A stretch of 64,000 bases of DNA, taken from Calothrix anomala FACHB-343. GTDB taxonomy: Bacteria > Cyanobacteriota > Cyanobacteriia > Cyanobacteriales > Nostocaceae. A program made the position numbers and the translations under genes. This document shows positions 14,872 to 19,113 of this stretch, one piece after another. The notes below the pieces were generated by a model that worked only from the letters and a program-made list of their open reading frames with translations, was not told the DNA's origin and did no database searches. The DNA lies in assembly GCF_014696435.1 (NCBI RefSeq), contig NZ_JACJQG010000020.1, forward strand, positions 1-64,000, in the 5' to 3' direction. Every line of letters begins with the position of its first letter. Positions within the stretch are counted from its first letter, which is position 1.

Positions 14872-14900
14872 TTGACAGCGCATACTACATAAATTACATT
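14872..14900 (+). promoter_or_regulatory. Candidate sigma-70 promoter of the Y-RNA-like / Ro unit
   Basis: TTGACA (14872-14877), a 17-nt spacer, then TACATT (14895-14900), about 50 bp before the first tRNA-like element and on the same strand. A consensus -35 in this otherwise gene-free 14489-14949 stretch makes it the best promoter candidate. The -10 box is weak. Confidence 0.5.
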
Positions 14901-14949
14901 AATAATACAAGGCGATGTTCCCAAAGGAGTAAGCTTTTAACTTTTAACC

Positions 14950-15086
14950 GTAGCGGATAGCTCAAATACCAGAGCGCCCACCTTGCCCGTCATGGCCGAC
15001 ATATCGAGGGTTATCGCAAATTACTTAACAACAAAAATCCTTGATTATAAGTTCTGGAGGTGTAGGTGAAAATCCTGCTCCGCTAC
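14950..15086 (+). ncRNA. tRNA-like / Y-RNA-like element, unit 1
   Basis: GTAGCGGA (14950-14957) pairs over 8 bp with TCCGCTAC (15079-15086) as an acceptor stem. The D-like arm is GCTC-AAATACCA-GAGC (14960-14975). The T-like arm is GTAGG-TGAAAAT-CCTGC (15062-15078), whose loop lacks the normal TTCRA. Between D and T arms, in place of the anticodon arm, are 86 nt containing GCC-CGTCAT-GGC and the shared motif GGCCGA...GAGGGTTATCG (14994-15016). No CCA is encoded. The motif resembles the GGUCCGA...GAGUUAUC element of vertebrate Y RNAs. Function is inferred from the adjacent Ro gene. Confidence 0.7.
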
Positions 15087-15121
15087 AATCAAACCTAATT
15101 TTTTTAATTTTGAATTTTTAT

Positions 15122-15244
15122 GTGGTGGGTAGCCAAGTGGTAAGGCGCTTATCCTTATTCACCTTTTGCCTGCAAAGGCCGACGAATTGAGGGTTATCGA
15201 TTTAGGTTCGAGCGATCGCAGGTTCGACTCCTGCCCCACCACCA
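15122..15244 (+). ncRNA. tRNA-like / Y-RNA-like element, unit 2
   Basis: GTGGTGGG (15122-15129) pairs with CCCACCAC (15235-15242); alternatively GGTGGG/CCCACC leaves A plus an encoded CCA at 15242-15244. The D-like arm is GCC-AAGTGGTAA-GGC (15132-15146), very tRNA-Gln-like. The T arm GCAGG-TTCGACT-CCTGC (15218-15234) has a canonical loop. The insert carries the GCCT-GCAA-AGGC hairpin with a GNRA loop, and GGCCGA...GAGGGTTATCG (15177-15199). No anticodon hairpin is present. Confidence 0.75.
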
Positions 15245-15275
15245 ACAATCTAAATCTAATTTTGAATTTTTACAT

Positions 15276-15416
15276 GGATGGGTAGCTCAATTTGGTAGAG
15301 CGTTGAATGGGTTAACACCCATAGTCCTTGGTTCACAACCTTGCCTGAAAAGGCCGACGAGTTGAGGGTTATCGTCAATTCAAAAGTTGCAGGTTCAATT
15401 CCTGCCCCATCCGCCA
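15276..15416 (+). ncRNA. tRNA-like / Y-RNA-like element, unit 3 (most complete, CCA encoded)
   Basis: GGATGGG (15276-15282) pairs with CCCATCC (15406-15412), followed by discriminator G and an encoded CCA (15414-15416). The D arm GCTC-AATTTGGTA-GAGC (15285-15301) and T arm GCAGG-TTCAATT-CCTGC (15389-15405) are fully tRNA-like. An extra hairpin ATGGGT-TAAC-ACCCAT (15307-15322) occupies the anticodon-arm position. Then come CCTTGGTTC, the GCCT-GAAA-AGGC GNRA hairpin and GGCCGA...GAGGGTTATCG (15352-15374), with GACGA...TCGTC able to close around it. At 141 nt it is too long for a tRNA and has no anticodon loop of seven. Confidence 0.8.
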
Positions 15417-15446
15417 AAATTTAATTTTGAATCATCCGAAAAACTT

Positions 15447-15587
15447 ATACCAATTTAAAAAAAGAATGCGACAGATGCGTAGGTTGGGCTTACCGTGTGT
15501 AAACCCAACATATACAAGGCTTTGGGATGTTGGGTTTCGTTCCTCAACCCAACCTACATTTGTAGCGATCATTCTTCAAATTGGTAT
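15447..15587. mobile_element. MITE-like element, copy B, between units 3 and 4
   Basis: Terminal inverted repeats ATACCAATTT (15447-15456) and AAATTGGTAT (15578-15587), with inner AAAAAAAGAATG and CATTCTT. The core is a long imperfect palindrome built on GTAGGTTGGG and CCCAACCTAC. It is non-coding. Its presence separates unit 4 from unit 3. Confidence 0.8.
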
Positions 15588-15612
15588 TAGTACAAGTTCT
15601 GAGTTTGTACGT

Positions 15613-15720
15613 GGATAGGTAGCTCAATTGGGTAGAGCATTGAACGGGTTAATTACCCGTAGTCCTTGGTTCATGCCCTGCCACCTTTCATTTTTGCCCG
15701 CAAGGGCCGGGAGATGAAGT
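15613..15720 (+). ncRNA. tRNA-like / Y-RNA-like element, unit 4 (5' part only) forming the leader of the Ro gene
   Basis: GGATAGG (15613-15619), D arm GCTC-AATTGGGTA-GAGC (15622-15638), hairpin ACGGGT-TAATT-ACCCGT (15644-15660) and AGTCCTTGGTTCA match the 5' half of unit 3 almost base for base, including a compensatory T-A to C-G change in the hairpin. After that it diverges. GCCC-GCAA-GGGC (15697-15708) resembles the GNRA hairpin of the other units, but the T arm and 3' acceptor strand are missing and the Ro start codon follows at 15722. The hairpin abuts the purine-rich GGGAG ribosome site, so it could influence Ro translation (inference). Confidence 0.65.
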
Positions 15721-15721
15721 C

Positions 15722-17326
15722 ATGAATTATAATTTTTTTACTAAAAAGAAAACTAATACACCGCAAACTCAGCCTATCCCCGGACGGGAAGCAGAGATGA
15801 TTCAAGGACGTTCCGGCGGCTATATGTTTGATGCTGGTATTTGGAAAATGCTGCGCCGTTGTCTGTTGATTGGTACAGCTAAAAGCACTTACTACGCCGG
15901 AAAGCAGGAATTAACAGAAGATTTTGTTACAGTTATCAAACAAGCTGTGGCGGAAAATCCAGGGCGAGTTGCTGAGGAAATTCTCTATGCTAGCGATGGA
16001 CGTGCCATCAACAACAGTGCGCCGATATTGGCATTAGTGCTGCTATCAATGGGTGAAACACCAGAAGCTAAAAAGGCGTTTGGTGAGATATTTGGGCAAG
16101 TTGTACGTACAGGTAGCCATTTTTACGAATGGCTGAACTACACTAAATCTCTGCGTGGATTTGGTAAGGTGGTGCGCGAAGCTGGGAAAACTTGGCTATC
16201 GCGGGAAGATGTTAAAGGTTTGGCTTATCAATTGTTGAAATATCAACAGCGTCAAGGCTTTTCTCATCGAGATGCATTGCGGTTATTCCATGTCAAACCA
16301 CCTACAGAAAATCACCGTCAATTATATGAGTGGGTTGTCAAAGGTTGGGAAGATTTGCCAGCCGATATCCCTTCAGAAGCGTTGGCGCAGATTTGGTGGT
16401 ATGAGTGGCTCAAGCGCAATCCTAGCGAAACTCATACAGCGATCGCACAAGGACGGCTAACTCACGAAATGGCTGCGCCTGTAGGTAAAATGGATCGGCA
16501 AGCTTGGCAGTTACTCTTCCAAGAAATGCCCATTGGCGCAATGCTGCGTAACCTTGGTTCTTTGACAGAATTAGGTGTATTACGCGCTGATGAAAGTGCT
16601 AATATTTTGCGAGTAGAAAGCGTTCTCAACAAGCAAGAACATCTGCGTAAAGGTCGAATACATCCGATTGATGTTTTAAAAGCTTTGAAAACTTATCAAT
16701 CTGGTGGGAAATTAGGACGCAGCCAGAAAACATGGGAACCAGTACCTCGGATTGTAGACATTTTAGAAAAGGCGCTAGAACTATCTTTTGATGTTGTACA
16801 ACCCACGGGTAAAGTTTTTATGCACGCTGTGGATGTATCTGGCTCTATGTGTTGGGGTGTGGTTGATTCAGTTGGCTTAACCTGCTGTGAAATTGCCACG
16901 ACAATGGCGCTAGTCACAGCCAAAGCTGAAAAAAACTACATGATTCGCGGCTTTGCAACGGAATTTAGAGAATTAGGTATCACCGCTAAAGATACTTTTA
17001 GTTCTGCACTTAGCAAAGCTAGCAATCAAAACTTTGGTGGTACAGATGCTTCTGTCGCTTACGACTGGATGATTCAAAATAAGTTCAAAGCCGATGTCAT
17101 TTGCTTTTGGACAGATAACGAGTCATGGGCTGGTTACAAGCATCCTAGTCAAGCCTTGGCGCAGTACCGCGAGAAGGTGAATCCCAATGCTAAGGCAGTG
17201 TATATCACTCTGGCACCTTACAACATTACCTTAGTAGATCCAAAAGATCCCCTATCTTGGGATTTAGCAGGGTTCGATCCAGGAACGCCTCGCATCATCC
17301 AGATGCTAGCTACTGGTGAACTTTAA
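15722..17326 (+). CDS. rsr: Ro60-like TROVE domain RNA-binding protein (Rsr)
   Basis: A ring-shaped RNA-binding protein that holds Y RNAs and takes part in RNA quality control and decay; bacterial relatives work with exoribonucleases such as PNPase. Residues 25-360 form the TROVE HEAT-like repeats, starting GREAEMIQGRSGGYMFD. Residues 365-534 form a von Willebrand A domain with an intact MIDAS: D371, S373 and S375 in VDVSGSM, T441 in GGTD, and a later FWTDNES. 534 residues is full length. The start ATG follows a GGGAG ribosome site. It lies directly downstream of four Y-RNA-like elements and upstream of a fifth, which strongly suggests a Ro/Y ribonucleoprotein locus. Confidence 0.93.
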   Translation: MNYNFFTKKKTNTPQTQPIPGREAEMIQGRSGGYMFDAGIWKMLRRCLLIGTAKSTYYAGKQELTEDFVTVIKQAVAENPGRVAEEILYASDGRAINNSAPILALVLLSMGETPEAKKAFGEIFGQVVRTGSHFYEWLNYTKSLRGFGKVVREAGKTWLSREDVKGLAYQLLKYQQRQGFSHRDALRLFHVKPPTENHRQLYEWVVKGWEDLPADIPSEALAQIWWYEWLKRNPSETHTAIAQGRLTHEMAAPVGKMDRQAWQLLFQEMPIGAMLRNLGSLTELGVLRADESANILRVESVLNKQEHLRKGRIHPIDVLKALKTYQSGGKLGRSQKTWEPVPRIVDILEKALELSFDVVQPTGKVFMHAVDVSGSMCWGVVDSVGLTCCEIATTMALVTAKAEKNYMIRGFATEFRELGITAKDTFSSALSKASNQNFGGTDASVAYDWMIQNKFKADVICFWTDNESWAGYKHPSQALAQYREKVNPNAKAVYITLAPYNITLVDPKDPLSWDLAGFDPGTPRIIQMLATGEL

Positions 17327-17427: not shown

Positions 17428-17494
17428 GGCGGGTTATCCTGGTTCGCAACTTGCCTTTGAGGACGAAGAACTTAGGGTTTGAAACTGTAAGTTG
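17428..17494 (+). ncRNA. tRNA-like / Y-RNA-like element, unit 5, 5' part (split by transposon)
   Basis: GGCGGGT (17428-17434) is exactly complementary to ACCCGCC at 19107-19113 on the far side of the TnpB element. It is followed by ATCCTGGTTCGCAACTTGCC, which matches TCCTTGGTTCACAACCTTGCC of unit 3, then a degraded GGACGA...CTTAGGGTT. The D arm is missing. It starts about 100 bp after the Ro stop codon. Confidence 0.6.
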
Positions 17495-17519
17495 AAATCT
17501 GGACAAAGCTATCCAAAGC

Positions 17520-17702
17520 TTACTGATTGTCCATATCTTCAAGCAATTTATCAACGTATTCTCTCAGCCGTTCTTGCCAGTCTGGAACGGCTTTAAGTTT
17601 TTCTTTTTGTCCCAGTCTTCCTTTAAAGCATATTGGTAGTTGGTCTAATTCTTGCTGAATAATTTTTTTAGCACCAATTTTGTTATTTTTCTGAAATGGC
17701 AT
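17520..17702 (-). CDS. Small conserved-looking protein divergent from tnpB, unknown
   Basis: 60 residues, starting MPFQKNNKIGAKKIIQQEL and ending KAVPDWQERLREYVDKLLEDMDNQ. It is charged, with no Cys cluster and no membrane segment. It lies inside the inverted ends of the TnpB element and is divergently transcribed from tnpB, 61 bp apart. I recall similar short GAKK...VPDWQERLRE proteins in cyanobacteria, but no function. It could be a transposon accessory or a regulator. Confidence 0.55.
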   Translation of the reverse strand: MPFQKNNKIGAKKIIQQELDQLPICFKGRLGQKEKLKAVPDWQERLREYVDKLLEDMDNQ

Positions 17703-17763
17703 TTACTTTAGGATTATCTGTTGGTATACTGACTATGCTATAACATTTGAGAGGTCGAGTCAA

Positions 17764-18987
17764 ATGCAATTAGTAGAAAAACACATTATCAATCGACAGC
17801 ATAAATTCTGGAAGGAATGCGATTATCTGGCATTACAATCCAAGCATCTTTACAATGCTGCTAACTATGTACAGCGTCAATACTTCTTTGAAACCAGTAA
17901 ATATTACAACTCTATTGATATTTACCACCAAACCAAGAATTTAGAAGCTTATCGATATCTGCCTACGAAGGTTAGTAAGCAAATTGTTCGGAGATTGTCT
18001 GAAGCTTGGAAAGGTTGGTTAGCTGCATTAAAAGATTGGTCAAAGCATCCCGAAAAGTATTTAGGTAAGCCAAAAATGCCTGGATACAAACATAAAAAGC
18101 GTGGGAGAAATATTGTCATTTATCCAATAGATGCAATATCAAAACCTGCTCTAACTAAAAGAATCATTAAGTTATCTCAAACTCATATTGAGTTCCCAAC
18201 TCAAGCTAAAAATGTAGACCAAGTCAGGATTGTTCCTAAGATTGACCACTATGTTATTGAAGTTATTTACACCGTTGCAGATGCCATGAAATCAAGTGGT
18301 AAATACTCTGCTGGTATAGACCTTGGTTTAAACAATTTAATGGCTGTAACTTCCAATCATCCCGCTATTAGATCGCTTTTGATTAACGGTAGACCATTGA
18401 AAAGTATTAACCAGTTCTTCAATAAACGAGTAGCCAAAGCACAATCAATCGCGGCAACAAGACAGGTAAAAAAGCTCAACAGCAAGCGTGATAGACGGAT
18501 TGATAATTATCTCCATACTGTCAGTCGTAGAATAATTGATTGGTGTCAGTTAAATGCTATTGGTCAATTAATCATCGGCAACAATCTCCGATGGAAACAA
18601 GATATCAATATCGGGAAAAAGAATAATCAGGATTTTACTAAGATTCCTCACGCTAAATTAATTAGTTTGTTGACCTATAAAGCACAGTTAGCAGGTATTG
18701 AAGTTGTACTAACTGAAGAAAGCTATACCTCAAAAGCTAGTGCTTTAGATGGTGATGAGTTGCCAGTATATCACAGCAAAACCAATCATCAACCTGTGTT
18801 TAGTGGTCAGCGTATTCAACGCGGTTTATATAAAACTCACACTGGTAAATTCATCAATGCTGATACCAATGGCAGTCTCAACATAGCTCGTAAAGTAATC
18901 CCAAACTTTATGGATGGGATAGAGGGATTGCCGTTTATCCCTGTAGTTTTAGGACTTTGGACTAAGATTACAAACATAGTTGTCTAG
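17764..18987 (+). CDS. tnpB: TnpB-family RNA-guided endonuclease-like protein (IS605 OrfB type)
   Basis: 407 residues. The RuvC-I motif GIDLGLNNLMAVTS gives D186, and RuvC-III INADTNGSLNIARK gives D367. The usual RuvC-II Glu (VxEDL) is replaced: the strand reads LIIGNNLRWKQDINIGKKNN (269-288). Acidic residues E318/E319 in LTEESYTSKAS could act instead, as proposed for some TnpB branches with rearranged active sites. The four-Cys zinc finger typical of TnpB is absent; the region contains IQRGLYKTHTGKF. It is therefore a divergent TnpB branch, intact in length. The start ATG follows GAGAGGTCGAGTCAA. Confidence 0.88.
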   Translation: MQLVEKHIINRQHKFWKECDYLALQSKHLYNAANYVQRQYFFETSKYYNSIDIYHQTKNLEAYRYLPTKVSKQIVRRLSEAWKGWLAALKDWSKHPEKYLGKPKMPGYKHKKRGRNIVIYPIDAISKPALTKRIIKLSQTHIEFPTQAKNVDQVRIVPKIDHYVIEVIYTVADAMKSSGKYSAGIDLGLNNLMAVTSNHPAIRSLLINGRPLKSINQFFNKRVAKAQSIAATRQVKKLNSKRDRRIDNYLHTVSRRIIDWCQLNAIGQLIIGNNLRWKQDINIGKKNNQDFTKIPHAKLISLLTYKAQLAGIEVVLTEESYTSKASALDGDELPVYHSKTNHQPVFSGQRIQRGLYKTHTGKFINADTNGSLNIARKVIPNFMDGIEGLPFIPVVLGLWTKITNIVV

Positions 18988-19021
18988 ATTTGCCTATCAT
19001 TGGGTAGCTTTGTCTAGATTT

Positions 19022-19113
19022 CTATGAGCGGTTATCGGTTGTATCTCCACCATTGTGGGGATAGCGGGTACCCTACGGGAAGCCGCTTCGCGTCTACAAT
19101 CCCCGCACCCGCC
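19022..19113 (+). ncRNA. tRNA-like / Y-RNA-like element, unit 5, 3' part
   Basis: It begins just after the transposon end and contains GAGCGGTTATCGG, a version of the shared GGGTTATCG motif. The T stem 5' strand GTGGG (19055-19059) pairs with CCCGC (19102-19106), with one T-G pair, and ACCCGCC (19107-19113) completes the acceptor started at 17428. The T loop is enlarged by about 36 nt (19063-19098) containing GGGTACCC and GAAGCCGCTTCGCGTCTAC, a known type of dispersed cyanobacterial repeat. Confidence 0.6.

Follow-up and report, generated by a model that had tools for sequence, protein, structure and literature searches.

tRNA-ordered Y RNA-like elements linked to the Ro gene in Calothrix anomala and other cyanobacteria

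A row of Y RNA-like elements upstream of a Ro60 gene was confirmed in the window analyzed here, a stretch of 64,000 nt from Calothrix anomala FACHB-343. Each complete element combines the acceptor, D and T arms of a tRNA with a Ro-binding Y-RNA module that takes the place of the anticodon arm. We consider it quite probable that the elements are tRNA-ordered Y RNAs of the adjoining Ro protein, with the processing and autoregulation proposed below. Judged from sequence, a tRNA-ordered Y RNA would be a new topological variant, with good support both for its structure and for a family linked to Ro, and a candidate as an RNA species. Neither a tRNA-ordered nor a cyanobacterial Y RNA was found in the literature searched; a prior description may exist in key Y RNA papers outside that search.

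The element array and the adjoining Ro gene

Three complete elements and one deletion remnant precede the Ro60 gene (sequence read over 14900-15721), all on the forward strand. This is the arrangement of three elements and a 5' partial one immediately upstream of Ro that a preliminary description had reported. With limits given to include an 8-bp acceptor stem, element 1 occupies 14950..15086 (137 nt), element 2 15122..15242 (121 nt) and element 3 15275..15413 (139 nt). The Rfam tRNA model (RF00005, gathering score 29) matched element 2 at 42.0 bits and element 3 at 53.7 bits, and its alignment left 61 and 70 nt, respectively, at the anticodon arm position, where the preliminary description had located a Y-like GGCCGA module. 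The same model gave no match to element 1 in the window, which was recognised through alignment with other copies of its layout (layout B, below) and by its shuffle-tested 3'-side pairing. The tRNA arms attributed to all three elements thus held by the Rfam model for two and by alignment for the first. Acceptor, D and T arms and the elbow residues of tRNA were present, the D stem being poorly aligned in a set of 22 copies; the anticodon stem-loop was replaced by the module, and ARAGORN called no tRNA on any element of the window. No single tRNA isotype emerged as the source of the bodies: the best 5' matches varied (Gly-, Thr-, Ser-, Arg-, Asn-, Lys-, Leu- or Gln-like) in a comparison that covered only 59 tRNAs.

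In the remnant (15611..15685, forward strand), a fourth element has kept its 5' half, which is fused to the final nucleotides of a fifth; both elements are complete in locus L009, the closest Ro locus among the best 80 of 167 relatives. The best Ro locus match in this set was Tolypothrix sp. FACHB-123, with 98% Ro identity, and the nearest Ro loci place the window in the Nostocales. Between element 3 and the remnant lies a MITE-like repeat (15443..15591, no strand assigned), which recurs in the same genome, holds most of the 55 same-genome repeat matches and also matches itself on the reverse strand. A truncated element downstream of Ro (17428..17479, forward strand) retains the acceptor 5' strand and the module and lacks the T arm. 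It is cut by an IS605-type insertion (17474..19050, right end approximate, no strand assigned) with OrfB_IS605 at 17764-18987, the repeat similarity beginning at 17474. The downstream element is complete, without a D arm, in the five loci aligned (L009, L010, L051, L064 and L065), and many loci have one more copy 3' of Ro among the R1 matches listed (R1 is described below). The array of the window is therefore eroded, by the remnant and two insertions. The T loop of some elements contains an inserted short palindrome (GGTACCCTTCGGGAAGCC... or GGTATGCCTTCGGCACGC...), seen at L010 4343-4506, L060 4641-4809 and L051 4617-4773; we take these inserts to resemble the small dispersed repeats of cyanobacteria.

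The Ro60/Rsr gene (15722..17326, forward strand) encodes 534 aa. Its identity as a TROVE/Ro gene, already recognised from the sequence alone, was borne out by matches to vWA_Ro60 (7e-38), TROVE (4e-18) and the D. radiodurans Rsr structure 2nvo (8e-78). Alignment with D. radiodurans Rsr and with vertebrate Ro60 spanned almost the whole protein, and H187, K170 and R174 (X. laevis numbering) were conserved, counted along the alignment. K170 and R174 are presumably Y RNA contacts. H187 is described as essential for Y RNA contact (PMC4030889, excerpt).

Module layouts, pairing and order of the unit

The module consists of a helix with a bulged C followed by GGGUUAUCG, and two layouts were distinguished. 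The layout A arm is composed of CCUUGUUC, an internal loop, UUG CCU [loop] AGGC C GA, an A, GAAUGAGG and GUUAUCG. The inner-hairpin loop is mostly GNRA, the bulged C precedes GA, and helix 2 is formed by the last strand pairing back with the first. Element 2 displays this layout (CCTTATTC ... TTGCCT-GCAA-AGGC-C-GA ... GAATTGAGG GTTATCG), and so does element 3, in which CCTTGGTTC pairs with GAGTTGAGG. Of the 21 layout-A copies scored, 11 had a helix 2 with 7 or more contiguous pairs on the expected side (maximum 10); in the remaining ones it was shorter and often bulged, and bulges are expected.

In layout B, represented by element 1, the inner hairpin stands separately and the second helix is a local downstream hairpin (ATCGAGGG...TCCTTGAT in element 1) with GUUAUC in its loop. 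Element 1 forms 8 contiguous pairs on the 3' side, compared with a shuffled mean of 4.8. At least 7 such pairs were found in 13 of 18 chosen layout-B candidates and in 5% of shuffles, and the candidates of L060, L069, L078 and L164 had only 4-6. The layout-B pairs co-change across species (GAAUUGAGG/CCUUAAUUC, GAAUCGAGG/CCUUGAUUC and GAAUGAGG/CCUUAUUC). L054, taken as layout B, turned out to be layout A, and an earlier tally of the two layouts was set aside as its pattern took leader hairpins too and left about one fifth of the upstream cases undecided. As read from the copies, one continuous strand from GGCCGA to GUUAUC is common to both layouts, and the origin of its partner differs.

Single-sequence folds often fail to show the module, and its pairing was assessed on alignments. 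The first contained 22 non-redundant copies, the three layout-B copies among 25 representatives being excluded, and served to build the covariance model R1; the second contained 147 distinct rows from the best 150 of 334 R1 matches. Among the 22 copies, 89.6% of cells were paired and the covariation score was 0.451 (0.216 in shuffles); these copies were chosen partly by acceptor and T-stem pairing, so those two helices are flattered. In the 147 rows, 94.4% of cells were paired, with a covariation score of 0.246 versus 0.146 and 267 versus 67 cells changed on both sides. The D stem was paired in just 46.6% and 73.8% of cells in the two sets. The columns of the Ro-binding helix (bulged C, GG(U/C)CCGA-type strand) were invariant or nearly so in the 22 copies, and paired in 96.9% of cells there and 99.0% in the 147 rows. 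The elements therefore possess the Ro-binding helix with bulged cytosine of Y RNAs; their 5' and 3' ends form a tRNA acceptor stem in place of the terminal stem of Y RNAs. A further motif considered was GNCGAAN(0-1)G / CNUUGNC. Of 150 rows, 48 had both halves in the right sequence, compared with 6 of 2940 shuffles, and the motif was dropped as a defining test, being absent from the literature searched. The bulged C9 within GGUCCGA is reported as the main Ro60 site and as kept in bacterial Y RNAs (PMC11277228 and PMC4030889, excerpts).

A tandem array alone leaves the repeat frame ambiguous. As a control for selection bias, copies were located by their D- and T-arm letters only. Among the 148 copies obtained from 69 loci, 138 showed acceptor pairing within the copy at 7 of 7 positions. 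Where neighbours had different 5' strands, there were 132 cases in which the 3' strand fitted its own copy, 20 in which it fitted the neighbour and six in which it fitted neither. An eighth acceptor pair, G-1:C73, was present in 118 of the 148 copies, and its partners co-change in others. The module separates the acceptor strands, which lie about 104-124 nt from each other. Moreover, a single complete tRNA-ordered unit lies upstream of Ro in L075, L077 and L087. The own-copy acceptor pairing and the single-copy loci indicate that the tRNA order is the unit, in agreement with the unpermuted order first proposed.

The functional RNAs could alternatively be Y RNAs of YrlA order that span the copy junctions, the tRNA order being merely the framing of the repeat. 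The Rfam YrlA model (RF02553) indeed matched across copies 2 and 3 of the window at 42.3 bits and across junctions in relatives at 31.4-52.1 bits, the highest in L009, and gave no match in L010 and L086; its gathering score (69 bits) was reached by no match in the loci scanned. However, three tandem E. coli tRNA-Gly genes (glyVXY) used as a control scored 40.3 bits across a junction, nearly equal to the window, and YrlA-model matches were therefore not counted as evidence of Y identity. Of the covariance-model check suggested beforehand, the YrlA half was uninformative. The single-copy loci, the acceptor strands that fit their own copy and the Ro helix, locally closed in 166 of 174 copies, also stand against junction-spanning RNAs, which we regard as very unlikely.

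Distribution, linkage to Ro and relation to other Y RNAs

An R1 scan of the window and 80 relatives gave 334 matches, of which 300 were used for counts; the 80 Ro loci are the best 80 of 167 relatives. Among the matches listed, one above 41 bits was present in 78 of the 80 loci. No R1 match was obtained for L073 at E 0.1, and in L044 no match exceeded 30.0 bits. Conservation of the stems beside Ro in related genomes, on which the preliminary description had made its reading depend, was thus found, together with covarying pairing. In the own genome, elements 2 and 3 scored 119.2 and 100.4 bits, which as training sequences of R1 they did not do independently, and the next 12 matches were tRNA-sized and reached at most 40.3 bits. 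R1 missed element 1 in this search, and element 1 was also absent among the 300 of 334 matches.

In 15 other genomes without any stronger match, tRNA-sized R1 matches reached up to 53 bits, and a line of 60 bits, above these matches, was set after the fact for strong elements. Such elements were detected in 53 of 291 cyanobacterial genomes of the class, spread over 14 families; the 291 genomes share some contigs with the 80 loci and are not an independent sample. The Ro vWA domain was detected in 57 of the 291 genomes and occurred together with a strong element in 52. In G265, the 53rd genome with elements, a Ro broken by frame shift and truncation lies just downstream. Five genomes had Ro without a strong element: in G010, G251 and G267 the Ro reading frames were merely 117-200 aa, and G025 and G040 had element-length R1 matches of 38-45 bits just upstream of Ro. 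By eye, strong elements were usually on the contig and strand of Ro; the elements of G083 and one copy of G077 were on contigs other than that of Ro. The number of upstream copies ranged from one (L075, L077, L087) to at least 11 (L082). The elements thus share with Y RNAs the linkage of their genes to the Ro gene.

That the elements are tRNA pseudogenes or intron-bearing tRNA genes, as the Rfam tRNA matches might suggest, is hardly credible. The anticodon arm is missing and ARAGORN made no call, the same module recurs across the copies aligned with its internal pairing kept as well, and in the own genome scores above those of tRNA-sized matches were obtained only beside Ro.

The cyanobacterial elements resemble YrlA (RF02553; Salmonella, PDB 6CU1), likewise a modular RNA beside Ro with a Ro stem and a tRNA-like domain (PMC8394870, excerpt). 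When superposed on tRNA, YrlA proves to be a circular permutant, whereas the cyanobacterial elements have their ends at the acceptor and a Ro stem closed by a small loop (for YrlA, PMC11472068, excerpt). The permuted tRNA-like domain with capped acceptor that defines YrlA was accordingly not found in them. In Salmonella, Ro and its Y RNAs belong to one stress-inducible unit, the RNA-repair operon rsr-yrlBA-rtcBA (PMC7790460, excerpt), to which the cyanobacterial arrangement is comparable. Unlike there, the flanks (at most 5 kb) of the 80 Ro loci and of L164 contained no RtcB. RtcB adjoined an array only in G265 (L160 1-1008), directly upstream of a Y element and the broken Ro. A Rhizobium rhizogenes plasmid (L168 563-6257) carries rtcR, Ro, YrlA-type matches (59.8, 40.4 and 26.7 bits, all under the gathering score) and rtcB.

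The vertebrate Y RNAs hY1-hY5 share the bulged-C helix in a GGUCCGA strand; in contrast to the cyanobacterial elements they have no tRNA body, their stem is formed from the RNA ends and they carry a 3' oligo-U (PMC11277228 and PMC4030889, excerpts). For a comparison outside cyanobacteria, 11 Ro loci were used, three from plasmids or viral contigs and eight from phages. In vertebrate Y RNAs the GGUCCGA strand is followed by GUUAUC. The combination of a GGNCG..GGUUAU/C strand with a T arm gave 18 matches in 9 of the 11 loci, and none in the two plasmid loci. Two of the 18, in L166, overlap, and one in L175 is an annotated tRNA-His; without the duplicate and the tRNA-His, 16 sites in 8 loci remain, 4 with local closure and 12 with distal closure of at least 6 bp. 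The median offset from the strand to the T arm was 43 nt in both the 174 cyanobacterial copies and the non-cyanobacterial matches, with search ranges of 25-95 and 25-75 nt, respectively, so the T-arm half is collinear in both forms.

The copies of Gordonia, Mycobacterium and Microbacterium phages and of viral contig L171 therefore resemble the cyanobacterial ones in strand and T-arm distance, and also sit beside Ro, sometimes in tandem. The two groups differ in closure. The Ro helix was closed locally (at least 4 bp) in 166 of 174 cyanobacterial copies and in 5 of 18 others, the remaining 13 being without local closure; a distal 3' strand could close the helix over at least 6 bp in 19 of the 174 and 14 of the 18, respectively. 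The two copies of Gordonia phage Cashline have capped acceptors, with UUCG as the cap in one and a short loop in the other. The phage copies thus have their ends at the Ro helix and the cyanobacterial elements at the acceptor, and the closure pattern, capped acceptor and collinear half are as expected of circular permutants. On L171 (4780-6000), about six permuted Y-like copies lie in a row downstream of Ro, apparently split by a small ORF. In Gordonia phages Mareelih (L172 3820-4400) and Sixama (L177 3980-4572), Y-like copies alternate with tRNA genes; an annotated tRNA-Leu (L172 4158-4246) consists of a tRNA end and a Y-like start and is probably a misannotation.

Leader hairpin, proposed function and origin

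Between the remnant and Ro, a hairpin GCCC-GCAA-GGGC followed by C-GGGAG (15690..15713, forward strand) overlaps the Shine-Dalgarno sequence of Ro and looks like the Ro-binding helix. The leader pattern is G(C/U)C(C/U)-loop-(A/G)GG(C/A), with C or U next and GGGAG after it in most cases. The fixed stem pattern was conserved in 80 of 82 loci, compared with 2.3% of shuffled leaders, with a GNRA loop in 72; L087 and L164 have other stems. A looser test (82/82) was discarded since it took almost any 4-bp stem. The bulge position of the 80 loci is C in 57 and U in 23, and the bulged base mostly precedes GG, not GA as in the module. In Paraprochloron (L086), the leader UUGCCUGAAAAGGCCGUAGA almost repeats the module UUGUCUGAAAAGGCCGUAGA of one of its own elements. 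The hairpin was not unusually stable (folding z -0.3). The conservation of a Y-like hairpin over the ribosome-binding site suggests that Ro regulates its own synthesis.

Upstream of the whole array, a promoter-like region (14872..14912, forward strand) contains TTGACA and then repeated TACTACA/AATACA-type units, and TACTACA with TTGAC just upstream was located 5' of the array in 60 of 81 loci; this region may serve as the promoter. The overlapping repeat units are a possible operator of a regulator. A LexA box was a poor fit to the repeat by eye.

Instead of being separate Y RNAs, the elements might act in cis as structures of the Ro mRNA leader, forming a tandem tRNA-like regulator. Such a role would agree with their same-strand position, flanked by one promoter-like region and Ro, and with the conserved hairpin as the last feature ahead of the start codon. 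It accounts poorly for the extra copy downstream of Ro in many loci, the conservation, as in free tRNAs, of acceptor stems and elbow residues, and an upstream copy number varying from one to at least 11, and we consider it unlikely.

As Y RNAs of the adjoining Ro, the elements would fold as a tRNA elbow of acceptor, D and T arms, the anticodon arm being extended by the Ro-binding stem (bulged-C helix, small and mostly GNRA loop, internal loop, second helix and GUUAUC). Ro would bind this stem by its outer surface, so that the tRNA-like body stays accessible to enzymes that handle tRNA or to a tether partner, as in the Rsr-YrlA-PNPase machine. The tRNA body may be the effector domain, as the analogy to YrlA and PNPase suggests (PMC8394870, excerpt). 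Transcription is expected to yield a single stress-inducible transcript Y-Y-Y-Ro. Because both ends lie at a normal acceptor stem, tRNA-type end processing is proposed, in which RNase P and RNase Z would cut the transcript into Y RNAs and Ro mRNA. The processed mRNA would begin with the Y-like hairpin over the ribosome-binding site, and Ro left over without Y RNA would bind this hairpin and so shut down its own production. A TROVE-domain gene, which may differ from the array-linked Ro, rises dramatically with erythromycin in Chlorogloeopsis PCC 9212 (PMC6424891, excerpt), and one, with the same reservation, rises together with RtcB in coculture (PMC11423583, excerpt). We infer from this induction that the cyanobacterial Ro RNP is stress-induced. 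The array is present in PCC 6912 (L060), a sister strain of PCC 9212.

A wider reading is put forward tentatively, as possible but short of probable. It holds jointly that Ro reads one strand and two short helices whatever their connectivity, that the tRNA form came first and YrlA later, and that the leader is autoregulatory. Within it, one Y RNA would exist in at least three strand orders, that of YrlA, phage and vertebrate Y RNAs and those of cyanobacterial layouts A and B. On this view, the tRNA-ordered form points to an origin of bacterial Y RNAs from a tRNA that acquired a Ro stem in its anticodon arm, with YrlA as a later permutation through tandem arrays. The forms would constitute a natural circular-permutation series of one RNA-protein system; as they are comparable across the series, the minimal element read by Ro becomes testable. 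This also bears on the kinship of Y RNA and tRNA, a Ro stem in the anticodon position of an unpermuted tRNA being the simplest imaginable ancestor of YrlA. The leader hairpin provides a testable model of Ro dosage control, and Picosynechococcus PCC 7002 is a model strain. Its plasmid pAQ7 (L164) carries Ro and three Y elements, flanked by phosphonate and siderophore transport genes.
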